Shown: positions 15,970 to 29,112 of the stretch, one piece after another
How positions within the stretch are numbered: the stretch's first letter is position 1
Layout: each line of letters starts with the position of its first letter
NCBI GenBank assembly: GCA_016180195.1
Contig: JACPBS010000004.1
Coordinates: forward strand, 81,485-145,484
Direction of reading: 5' to 3'
DNA length: 64,000 bases
Origin: Candidatus Woesearchaeota archaeon
Lineage (GTDB): Archaea > Nanobdellota > Nanobdellia > Woesearchaeales > UBA10216
Program-made: the position numbers and the translations under genes
Notes under the pieces: model-generated
What the model saw: only the letters and a program-made list of their open reading frames with translations
Told to the model about the DNA's origin: nothing
Databases searched by the model: none

Positions 15970-17232
15970 ATGGATTCAGGGACGGGTTACGTTGTCAGGG
16001 ACATTAAGCTGGCTGCTCAGGGCAGGCTTAATATTGAATATGCGGAGTCTCAGATGGGTGCCTTGATGAGCGTCAAGGCTCGTTTCGAGAAGGAAAAACC
16101 TCTTAACGGTGTCAGGATCGGGATAGCCCTTCACCCGTCCAAGGAGACTGCTGTTCTTGTCCGCACGCTTGCTGCAGGTGGGGCTGAGGTTGCTTTGTGC
16201 GCCTGCAATCCTCTGAGCACTCAGGATGATGTCGCTGCCGCCCTTGCAGAGGAGGGTATTTCTGTTTACGCTTATAAGGGGGAATCCAAGGAGGATTATT
16301 ACGCCTTTCTTAGGAAAGTCATAGAGACAAGGCCCAATATCACTGTTGATGACGGCTGCGATCTTATCAGCGAGATTCATCAGAATCGCCCGCAGCTGAT
16401 TAAGGATATAATCGGCGGGTGTGAGGAAACTTCTACAGGTGTCATAAGGTTGAAGTCGATGGAAAGGGATGGCGCATTGAAATACCCTGTTATTGCTGTC
16501 AACGAATCTAAAACAAAACACCTTATGGATAATGTGAAAGGAACCGGCCAATCAACTATTGACGGCATTTTAAGGGCATCTAATGTATTGGTTGCAGGAA
16601 AGAACTTTGTTGTTTGTGGCTATGGGGACTGTGGAAAAGGAGTCTCAAAGCGTGCCCAAGGTATGGACGCTAATGTTATCGTTGCAGAGGTTGACCCTTT
16701 CAGGGCTTTGCAGGCAGTTTATGATGGTTACAGGGTGATGCCGATTGCTGAGGCCGCAAAGATAGGCGATATATTTGTTACAGTCACTGGTAACAAGAAC
16801 GTTATTGATGTTGAACACATAAAATCAATGAAGACAGGGGCTATTCTTTGTAATTCCGGGCATTTTGATGCTGAGATAAATATTAATGAGTTGAAAAAAA
16901 TGGCAAAATCCAGGCGTATAAGGCCTTTTATGGATGAGTTTAGCCTTCCTGGCGGTAATAAGGTTTTGGTTCTTGGTGAAGGGCGCCTGGTAAATCTGGT
17001 CGCGGCCGAGGGCCATCCCTCTGAGATCATGTCCATGTCCTTTTGCAATCAGGCCTTGGCTGCTGAACACCTTGTCAGGAATAAAGGAAAATTGAAGCCA
17101 GGGGTTCATGTTTTGCCTAATGAAGTTGATGACTTTGTGGCGCGGTTACAACTAGAAGCTATGGGTATAGCTATTGACCGCCTTACAGAGGAGCAAAAGG
17201 CTTATTTAAATTCATGGAGGGAGGGAACCTGA
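15970..17232 (+). CDS. ahcY: Adenosylhomocysteinase
   Basis: GVRIGIALHPSKETAVL; VVCGYGDCGKGVSKRAQGMDANVIVAEVDPFRALQA; GEGRLVNLVAAEGHPSEIMSMSF. Confidence 0.94.
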   Translation: MDSGTGYVVRDIKLAAQGRLNIEYAESQMGALMSVKARFEKEKPLNGVRIGIALHPSKETAVLVRTLAAGGAEVALCACNPLSTQDDVAAALAEEGISVYAYKGESKEDYYAFLRKVIETRPNITVDDGCDLISEIHQNRPQLIKDIIGGCEETSTGVIRLKSMERDGALKYPVIAVNESKTKHLMDNVKGTGQSTIDGILRASNVLVAGKNFVVCGYGDCGKGVSKRAQGMDANVIVAEVDPFRALQAVYDGYRVMPIAEAAKIGDIFVTVTGNKNVIDVEHIKSMKTGAILCNSGHFDAEININELKKMAKSRRIRPFMDEFSLPGGNKVLVLGEGRLVNLVAAEGHPSEIMSMSFCNQALAAEHLVRNKGKLKPGVHVLPNEVDDFVARLQLEAMGIAIDRLTEEQKAYLNSWREGT

Positions 17233-18128
17233 TTTCCATTTAATAGCACATTTTTTACAAATTGCTGTTTTTTCTTTTTTCCAATATGAGAACTTCCGAT
17301 TTTATTTATAAACAACAATATATCCCGGTGCCTTGAAGCTTCAGTGATGCACCATTTGTGACCTTTTTTAGACACCATACTTCTTACTTTAGAGTTAATT
17401 CCTAACCTCAATAATAAATTGCTAAGTTGCGAAGAATAGTTTACACTGGCACTACAGATTTTAATCTTGGGCGCTATGCCTGAGTACTTATTATTTCCGA
17501 TTGTTATGGTCCCATCCCCATCAAAAACCCCCCTTAAATAACCGGGCACTTCTTCTTGTTTGATATCTTTTATTCGCGGTTCATCTTTCCACCCTACTTT
17601 CTTAGCTAATATTCTTGCAATGATTGAAGGGGGATGTATATGCTTTGTTTGATCCCTAGCATCCATATACTCAAGAAAACTGCAATCAAAGGTAGCTAAG
17701 ACCAACTCTTTGAATTTTTTGACTAATGAAAAGTTTTTATTGCAGAAATAAAAGTTTACACCATTTCTTCTCTTGTTCAAATTCATATGGCCATCCGTGT
17801 GTATAAGGCCTATAAGTTCTGGCGAAATTATTGCTTTTTTGATTCTGATAGGCTGATGACTCCTCCCTGATAAAACTAAGCCTTCAACATCTTTTTTTAT
17901 TCCCAAAAAATCAAGAATTGAAAGATAAATATAACCGGACGGCTTGATTTTCCCGGTTTTAACTTCGCTGAATATAGAATCATCTATATCAAATAGTTCA
18001 CAGAAATCTTGTTGACTGATTCTGGTTAAAAGAAATCTGAAGATCTCTTCCCTTTCTGTTTCAGACCATTTTACGAACATATGTCTATCTTTTATATCCG
18101 CTAATTTTATTTTTAAGTTTGTAATCAT
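17202..18128 (-). CDS. LAGLIDADG-family homing endonuclease-like protein
   Basis: Two LAGLIDADG-like motifs: ELIGLIHTDGHMN and YLRGVFDGDGTI; N-terminal HTH-like region; overlaps ahcY 3' end by 31 nt antiparallel. Confidence 0.8.
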   Translation of the reverse strand: MITNLKIKLADIKDRHMFVKWSETEREEIFRFLLTRISQQDFCELFDIDDSIFSEVKTGKIKPSGYIYLSILDFLGIKKDVEGLVLSGRSHQPIRIKKAIISPELIGLIHTDGHMNLNKRRNGVNFYFCNKNFSLVKKFKELVLATFDCSFLEYMDARDQTKHIHPPSIIARILAKKVGWKDEPRIKDIKQEEVPGYLRGVFDGDGTITIGNNKYSGIAPKIKICSASVNYSSQLSNLLLRLGINSKVRSMVSKKGHKWCITEASRHRDILLFINKIGSSHIGKKKKQQFVKNVLLNGNQVPSLHEFK

Positions 18129-27915: not shown

Positions 27916-28094
27916 ATGGGAGGCAAATCTGTCGGAATAGTTGGATTCGGCCAACTTGGGGGATTTTTAGCAAAGCATCTCAGAAATGATTTTGACATTT
28001 TTGTTTCCGGGACATTCAGGTTTTGAATCCTTATGCTGAAAAAGGAACATTCGTGTCAAAGATTGAAGATATTAGGAAAAAGCTTAAGGATTAA
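27916..28094 (+). pseudogene. Internally deleted Rossmann-fold dehydrogenase relic (prephenate dehydrogenase-like)
   Basis: MGGKSVGIVGFGQLGGFLAKHLRNDFDIFVSG then frameshift to NPYAEKGTFVSKIEDIRKKLKD*; lacks about 200 aa of the body. Confidence 0.55.
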
Positions 28095-28795
28095 TTTTCA
28101 TCCCATCCAGAAAGATCTTTCTGGAATTCTCCACCTTTCACCCTCTTATATGGCATCCAGCTTTTCCTGAAGATCTCATGATGCGTCTCGTGGTTTTTTT
28201 TAAGAAATGCCTGTGTAAGCGGGTCTGTAAGGTAGCCTGAGCCAAAATTGATCCCTATTTTTTTTTTGATTTTCCCTATTTCATCCTCCCTTGTGACCTT
28301 TGCCAGTATTGATGCAGCCCCGCATTCAATGTGATTCAAGTCAGCCTTGTGCTCCACAGAAACATCGATCTCCTTGTTATCAAGAAGTTTCATCAGGTAT
28401 CTCTTGTAGTTGATTATGTTGTTGCTTGGGCTGTCTATTATTGCCTTCTGGGGCTTCAACGAGTTTATTATCTCTGCAGATTTGTGTGCCTCAAGCCAGT
28501 TGAGGTTAAGGTCATCAGACTGAAGGGCAGCATCTATTTCAGAAGGCTCAATGACAACTATTTTCCATTTTATGGCGATGGTTTTTATCTTGTCAAAAAG
28601 AGTTCTCATCTTCACGATTGACAATAGCTTAGAGTCCTTCACGCCAATTGATTTGAGGCTTTCGCTTCCTTCCTCATCTAACAGGACTCCTGCCATGACC
28701 ATCGGACCTATGATGGGGCCTTTGGGTTTACTTAAGCTCGAAAATCATGCTTAAAGTAATCTACCTGCCTCATCAATGCCGCAAACCACAGTCAT
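28091..28795 (-). CDS. rnhB: Ribonuclease HII, interrupted by a putative 39-nt intron; join complement(28091..28721, 28761..28795)
   Basis: Exon 1 MTVVCGIDEAGR (ATG at 28795, ATGA overlap with upstream gene), exon 2 GPIIGPMVMAGVLLDEE...; excision gives 666 nt = 221 aa in frame; ADLNHIECGAASILAKVTRE conserved. Confidence 0.8.
28722..28760 (-). other. Putative archaeal BHB-type intron in rnhB pre-mRNA
   Basis: ATTACTTTAAGCATGATTTTCGAGCTTAAGTAAACCCAA; internal hairpin TTACTT(T)AAGC/GCTTAAGTAA; exonic outer helix TGATGAGGC/GCCCCATCA; GGT/ACC central helix; AGA 5' bulge. Confidence 0.65.
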
Positions 28796-29073
28796 ATTGC
28801 TATCACATTTTTGTTTAAATTTAATTTCCACATTTTTTTATCGGTCCGTATGACTAAACCTAATTTTTCGAGTTCTTTTAATCTTCGAAATGCAGATTTC
28901 CAAGAAACGCCCAATTTTTCGGCCAATTCCTTAGTATGTTGACAATCTTCCACCAGAATATTTAAATATTTATACTTTAAATGCGATATAATAATTGCTT
29001 TTTTAGTTTTAATAACCCAATATTGTGAACTTTTAACCCTAAAATTCTCAATAATCATTTCTTTTTTGAGCAT
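28792..29073 (-). CDS. Winged-helix DNA-binding protein
   Basis: CQHTKELAEKLGVSWKSAFRRLKELEKLGLVIRTDKKMWKLN. Confidence 0.7.
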   Translation of the reverse strand: MLKKEMIIENFRVKSSQYWVIKTKKAIIISHLKYKYLNILVEDCQHTKELAEKLGVSWKSAFRRLKELEKLGLVIRTDKKMWKLNLNKNVIAI

Positions 29074-29112
29074 GGATTCGCATTCTTCAGTCTTTTGGAT
29101 AATCCTCTGAGA

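Follow-up and report, generated by a model that had tools for sequence, protein, structure and literature searches.

A predicted BHB-type intron in the active-site codons of an archaeal RNase HII gene and its association with a putative external homing endonuclease

rnhB, coding for the DNA-repair enzyme RNase HII, is interrupted in the window (the whole 64,000-nucleotide stretch of the Candidatus Woesearchaeota contig analysed here) by a 39-nt insert with the architecture of a BHB intron. The insert lies inside the Arg codon of DEAGRG, the active-site motif of RNase HII. Inserts recur at the same nucleotide in many archaeal lineages, and in the window's order their presence is associated with a LAGLIDADG endonuclease gene adjoining rnhB. 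With a probability of about 0.88, we read the insert as an mRNA intron spliced by EndA and RtcB and spread by a homing endonuclease which is encoded outside the intron and has decayed in the window.

Exon 1 of rnhB (28795-28761 on the minus strand) reads ATGACTGTGGTTTGCGGCATTGATGAGGCAGGTAG, its start codon overlapping the stop of the upstream gene in an ATGA, and exon 2 continues from 28721 with AGGCCCCATCATAGG. Joining the exons gives MTVVCGIDEAGRGPIIGP..., a 666-nt reading frame coding for 221 amino acids plus the stop; the exact junction can be shifted by one A, which leaves the protein unchanged. The joined product matches Pfam RNase_HII from end to end (E 3e-39) and aligns with the solved archaeal RNase HII 1uax (E 7e-36), which identifies the host gene as RNase HII and not cbf5. 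The first-pass annotation had placed the insert at 28722-28760, expected 222 codons after its removal and described both the ATGA overlap with a HTH gene and the absence of the invariant DEAGRG motif from the mechanically listed rnhB ORF; all of these descriptions were upheld. It had also considered a separate intact rnhB elsewhere, and a profile search of the window's genome (a 97.5%-complete, multi-contig assembly) found no second RNase HII gene. A listed ORF devoid of its catalytic motif, in an assembly of multiple contigs, is what a pseudogene or an assembly or sequencing error could produce. However, the remaining reading frame is intact and conserved and belongs to the only RNase HII gene in the genome, and same-site inserts are present in dozens of independent assemblies, including those of Lokiarchaeotal genomes G429 and G430, where they lie on contigs of 2.27 Mb and 3.34 Mb. 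We give this explanation next to no credence.

The RNA around the insert folds with -19.9 kcal/mol (z = -2.8; two out of 200 shuffled sequences were as good), much as the first-pass annotation had described. The site is a near-canonical BHB, having two 3-nt bulges, inner and outer helices and a central helix AGGU/ACCC with three out of four pairs formed and one A-C mismatch (Table 1). The AGA 5′ bulge and the cut after nucleotide 2 stand as first described. The register needed refinement: in the canonical one AGGU faces ACCC and the 3′ bulge is AA^A, while the AAAG bulge belongs to an alternative register with a better outer helix, in which the 3′ bulge grows to 4 nt.

Table 1. Features of the interrupted rnhB gene and of the adjacent endonuclease remnant (window coordinates).
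Feature	Position	Strand	Remark or basis
rnhB, interrupted, encodes RNase HII	28795-28091	minus	single copy
rnhB exon 1, 35 nt	28761..28795	minus	M T V V C G I D E A G + 2 nt of the Arg codon
BHB-type intron (predicted), 39 nt, in-frame TAA stops	28722..28760	minus	fold; same-site inserts in relatives
rnhB exon 2, remainder of RNase HII incl. stop codon	28091..28721	minus	Pfam and solved-structure matches
Outer helix 5′ arm GATGAGGC, exon 1	28767..28774	minus	BHB register; synonymous-site test
Outer helix 3′ arm GCCCCATC, exon 2	28712..28719	minus	one A-C mismatch
Central helix 5′ arm AGGT (AGGU in RNA), exon 1	28763..28766	minus	BHB register
Central helix 3′ arm ACCC, intron	28724..28727	minus	BHB register
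5′ bulge AG^A	28760..28762	minus	predicted EndA cut between 28761 and 28760
3′ bulge AA^A	28721..28723	minus	predicted EndA cut between 28722 and 28721
Inner intron hairpin TTACTTTAAGC ... GCTTAAGTAA	28728..28759	minus	RNA fold, BHB register
C-terminal winged-helix remnant of a putative LAGLIDADG homing endonuclease	28792..29112	minus	listed HTH ORF 28792-29073, open frame to about 29112

Both EndA and RtcB are encoded in the window's genome. EndA (177 aa) has one N-terminal and one C-terminal domain (PF02778 and PF01974) and, judging by this composition, looks like the homotetrameric type, which is stricter for canonical BHBs. Among the intron-bearing genomes, many of which are incomplete assemblies, EndA was found in 39 out of 42. 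Several tRNA genes of the window's genome contain extra sequence, with Rfam tRNA matches spanning 90, 108, and 128 nt. EndA could also be thought to cleave the rnhB transcript with the exons only rarely joined, the BHB acting as a negative regulatory switch and not as a constitutive intron; EndA processing in the absence of a coding intron is known for the 5′ UTR of HVO_1309 (PMC7714728). Such a switch appears quite improbable, as only joining preserves the exon frame and all the catalytic residues, RtcB is encoded and rnhB is single-copy.

About 70 distinct inserts of 19-45 nt occupy exactly the position of the window's insert in rnhB genes of Woesearchaeota, Aenigmatarchaeota, Nanohaloarchaeota, Thermoplasmatota, Bathyarchaeota, Lokiarchaeota and other lineages (the surveyed genomes are mostly metagenome assemblies, and the counts share ancestry). 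Since dozens of archaea carry different inserts with the same architecture at the same site, the BHB fold in the window is not a chance one. A search with the spliced protein found rnhB in 93 out of 99 related genomes. Most of these genes are uninterrupted, including one 78% identical to the window's, and several have inserts at the same base, differing in length and sequence. Alignment of relatives, suggested earlier as a check, thus gives either uninterrupted genes or unrelated BHB-shaped inserts at exactly the same nucleotide. Pattern scanning, which undercounts variants, detected the GATGAR form of the intron in 16 and the GACGAR form in six of the 359 genomes of the window's order; a reversed control pattern had no matches in the same scan. 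Extended to 85,462 species, the intron pattern matched 38 loci, 34 of them genuine rnhB genes, all of the archaeal type; no bacterial rnhB with an insert was among these loci, and viral contigs gave no match. The matches in Prevotella (L057), Uhrbacteria (L058), Herbaspirillum (L066), and Halovivax (L081) were dismissed as chance hits outside rnhB. Locus L078 (JAUYPF010000053.1) comes from a record titled 'bacterium'; its rnhB is of the archaeal type, the genome encodes EndA, and the assembly is probably archaeal and mislabelled.

In the Lokiarchaeotal order, about 34 out of 76 rnhB genes contain a stop-containing insert of 30 nt. The length of these introns (loci L122-L151 and L192-L209) is exactly 30 nt in every case while their sequence is variable; in other lineages the introns measure 19-45 nt. 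On a tree of 155 rnhB genes, with modest branch support and with gains not separable from losses, intron presence and absence requires at least 21 changes, eight of them forced by well-supported branches.

Intron-bearing genomes usually have just one full rnhB. In G362, G371, G377, G380, and G383 the intron-bearing gene is accompanied by a second, intron-free PF01351 gene, usually divergent; such second genes sometimes lie no more than about 2 kb from rnhB. An identical 45-nt rnhB intron is present on contig 38 of G017 (L041/L095) and in G015 (L016). G017 has an additional intron-free rnhB on another contig; its intron-bearing copy may be a contaminant or come from a second strain.

The inserts were compared as a set of 68 distinct intron/exon cores comprising 67 introns of 19-45 nt. 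Translation is blocked in all 68, either by a frame shift or by a stop, which is in frame in 65. The central helix has all four pairs in 54 cores and three in the remaining 14; the 5′ bulge is AG^A in 57 and the 3′ bulge AA^A in 38. The two variable central pairs are formed in 128 out of 136 cells, compared to 67±5 when introns are permuted among the host exons, and a control with shuffled introns gave 66±6 against 143 out of 148 observed. In the inner helix of the 30 Lokiarchaeotal introns, 232 out of 270 cells are paired, and just 81-115 when the arms are slid by 1-2 bases. The outer helix lies entirely within the coding sequence, and its synonymous sites are biased toward pairing in intron-bearing rnhB genes (4.29 of 5 versus 3.18). 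This bias holds separately for Lokiarchaeota (p 4e-7) and for the others (p 8e-5), with p values inflated by shared ancestry and the direction agreeing in both groups. The predicted cuts after the second nucleotide of the bulges restore D/E-E-A/S-G-R-G in every case tested. Sequence comparison therefore strongly supports the assignment of the rnhB inserts to BHB-type introns, as had been proposed for the 39-nt insert at the outset, and such introns would be expected to be spliced.

A hairpin with an in-frame stop fills the gap in the window, so programmed ribosomal bypassing, with ribosomes hopping over the 39 nt as in phage T4 gene 60, also deserves attention. It would require take-off and landing codons that match, and AGA (or GGT) at take-off differs from AAA at landing. 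Moreover, what all lineages conserve is a BHB whose cut positions suit EndA, the inserts were found in archaea, which possess EndA, but not in the rnhB genes of bacteria, and the synonymous exon sites are selected for the outer helix. We find bypassing very hard to credit. Group I and group II self-splicing introns were rejected too: the window has no Rfam match, and a ribozyme would not fit into 19-45 nt.

The RNase HII motif itself is not uniform among the loci collected from related archaea. The first catalytic Asp is replaced by Glu (EEAGRGP) in L029, L153, L154, L159, L166, L169, L171, L174, and L179, and Glu is replaced by Asp (DDAGRGP) in L164 and L176; these are unusual changes in an almost invariant motif. 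EEAG-type rnhB genes of L227 and L235 are intron-bearing as well.

The upstream gene was initially labelled simply as a HTH gene. Its overlap with rnhB stands, and the label can now be refined: judging by the sequence, the ORF is a remnant of a LAGLIDADG homing endonuclease and not an active enzyme. It covers approximately positions 235-340 of the 341-position profile; the N-terminal LAGLIDADG two thirds are lost, and the two LAGLIDADG motifs are absent from the window's own ORF, leaving the C-terminal winged-helix part alone. Full-length relatives (340-390 aa) are encoded directly upstream of rnhB genes that contain the intron, ending 6-29 nt short of the DEAG Asp codon, in Aenigmatarchaeota, Nanohaloarchaeota and Thermoplasmatota, among others. 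They have two LAGLIDADG-type motifs, LWLAEGD and RGFFAGEG, with the G-E-G of the latter invariant. All five members compared match Pfam LAGLIDADG_3 with E values of 1e-4 to 1e-3, one above the cut-off and four just below it. The best structural match of the endonuclease model (mean pLDDT 89) is the archaeal LAGLIDADG enzyme I-DmoI (E 5e-6, target TM 0.63-0.66), and the C-terminal half of the model matches the winged helices of SelB. As far as motifs and the model can tell, the full-length protein linked to rnhB is a LAGLIDADG homing endonuclease with tandem winged helices, presumably capable of homing. BHB introns with LAGLIDADG genes are known from archaeal rRNA, and the rnhB system shares with these I-DmoI-type introns both the BHB and the kind of endonuclease. 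It differs in that the host is an mRNA, the intron is only 19-45 nt long and has no ORF, and the endonuclease, equipped with two C-terminal winged helices, is encoded outside the intron, directly upstream of the host gene.

A profile search for the endonuclease in the 359 genomes of the window's order found the protein in 21, and in 18 it adjoins rnhB. The intron is present in 17 of these 18 genomes compared to a detected intron in nine out of 341 without an adjoining endonuclease (Fisher p 1e-21), and the same association is seen in an unselected survey of 92 genomes (p = 1.5e-5). Four of these 17 introns were found only via the endonuclease, having been missed by the patterns due to an EEAG motif or a different residue after GRG; their central helices are all paired 4/4. 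The loci form a decay series. An intact endonuclease accompanies the intron in G001, G186, G200, G214, G173, and G224; a decayed one accompanies it in the window, G080, G355, and L054; the intron is alone in G004, G015, G089, and Lokiarchaeota, where the vicinity of the rnhB intron is devoid of such an endonuclease. In G053, a remnant of the endonuclease is present without the intron, and most genomes have neither.

One allele is mosaic. The 36 nt preceding the intron of G009 have a similarity of 0.78 to G001, a member of another genus, versus 0.53 to close relatives, whereas the rest of rnhB is at 0.82-0.87 to the close relatives versus 0.37-0.56 to G001 (position by position, ungapped). By its sequence, G009 is a recombinant allele with a boundary near the intron.

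Alternatively, the BHB intron could be ancient, vertically inherited and often lost, with the neighbouring endonuclease merely parasitising the locus. The constant 30-nt length and compensatory substitutions of the Lokiarchaeotal introns are what vertical descent predicts, no endonuclease is located near these copies, and the tree cannot tell gain from loss. On the other hand, vertical descent does not account for the intron being present in 17 out of 18 genomes with the endonuclease beside rnhB, for near relatives differing in intron presence, or for the G009 allele with its upstream part resembling another genus. Between Thermoplasmata and Woesearchaeota, the endonucleases are also more similar (45-49% identity) than the RNase HII proteins (35-44%). 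We therefore consider purely vertical descent unlikely.

Under the preferred reading, the splicing and homing of the rnhB intron could proceed as follows. The nascent rnhB mRNA would fold so that the exon sequences coding for DEAGRGP supply the entire outer helix and one arm of the central one. EndA would cut behind nucleotide 2 of both 3-nt bulges, RtcB would seal the exons, and RNase HII would be made from the spliced mRNA. The upstream LAGLIDADG/two-winged-helix endonuclease would cut rnhB copies lacking the intron, at their almost invariant codons for the active site, and repair from the donor would copy the intron alone or, given a long conversion tract, the intron together with the endonuclease gene upstream of it. 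The acquired intron would destroy the cut site and thereby protect it. In the window, only the C-terminal remnant of the endonuclease would then have survived decay, with the intron left behind. The location of the intron in the catalytic motif can be explained by the preference of homing elements for conserved sites (PMC2814812). The weakest step is the co-mobilisation of a gene lying outside the intron, which would need a long conversion tract or one-sided repair. As insertion of the unit by one-sided repair should leave the original exon 1 stranded, a left-over copy could be expected upstream of the endonuclease, and none was found in 22 loci. Counted against splicing or homing are also the A-C mismatch in the window, the apparently homotetrameric type of EndA, the Lokiarchaeotal introns without an endonuclease, the remnant without an intron in G053 and the LAGLIDADG_3 scores near the cut-off.

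We think it likely that the mobile unit is a LAGLIDADG/tandem winged-helix endonuclease located outside a minimal BHB intron, that its target in DPANN, Asgard and other archaea is the set of codons for the RNase HII active site, and that it seeds protein-coding introns which outlive the endonuclease. A comparable arrangement is the collaborative homing of phage group I introns (PMC3984707, PMC2814812), in which the insertion site of an ORF-less intron is the target of an external endonuclease, as we infer for rnhB. The phage introns are group I ribozymes, whereas that of rnhB would be a protein-spliced BHB intron residing in archaeal chromosomes, with cleavage of the target presumed.

Within the literature covered, a BHB intron interrupting the coding sequence of an archaeal protein gene has been demonstrated only for cbf5; putative cases are mentioned from Sulfolobus and from a virus (PMC2738675, PMC7714728, PMC4810243). 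The first-pass annotation had supposed that such introns are known mainly from crenarchaeal cbf5 and that the rnhB case is new; we found no earlier description of introns in rnhB/RNase HII, or of such introns in Woesearchaeota or Lokiarchaeota, in the open-licence literature (subscription papers could differ). The cbf5 intron of Desulfurococcales and Sulfolobales (PMC2738675; Watanabe, 2002) also has a BHB in an archaeal protein gene, with an EndA cut after nucleotide 2 (predicted for rnhB). It likewise interrupts a catalytic codon, is patchily present and overlaps with the rnhB introns in size (36 nt in Staphylothermus); its origin was called unclear, and no endonuclease link was reported (PMC2738675). 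The rnhB introns differ in their host gene, in their much wider range of lineages (DPANN, Asgard, Thermoplasmatota, Bathyarchaeota), in the many dissimilar introns at a single site and in the adjacent LAGLIDADG gene. The HVO_1309 transcript of Haloferax (PMC7714728) is another mRNA processed by EndA, as the rnhB mRNA is expected to be, but its BHB is in the untranslated leader and not in the coding sequence. Hence the BHB kind of intron is already known, and what is new in rnhB is the host gene, the breadth and the external endonuclease.

rnhB can thus be considered the second gene with predicted archaeal protein-coding BHB introns, spread across many phyla. The stages of the life cycle are all visible (endonuclease with intron, decayed endonuclease with intron, intron alone, no intron), making the origin of archaeal mRNA introns directly testable. 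If the proposed mobile unit is real, it supplies a source for such introns, and Lokiarchaeota, relatives of the eukaryote ancestor, have mRNA introns of their own, predicted here in nearly half of those sampled. Automated annotation likely truncates RNase HII in many archaea, deleting the active site.

Other endonucleases of this kind were encountered beside conserved genes. In the window, 17202-18128 (minus strand) codes for a separate LAGLIDADG_3 protein (E 8e-14), and the end of its ORF overlaps the 3′ end of the convergent gene 15970-17232, whose 420-aa product looks like an adenosylhomocysteinase; by its sequence, this protein is a homing endonuclease standing on its own next to a further conserved gene. 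The endonuclease linked to rnhB also has distant relatives beside an apparent SRP54 gene (L237) and immediately 3′ of an archaeal 16S rRNA gene (L238).
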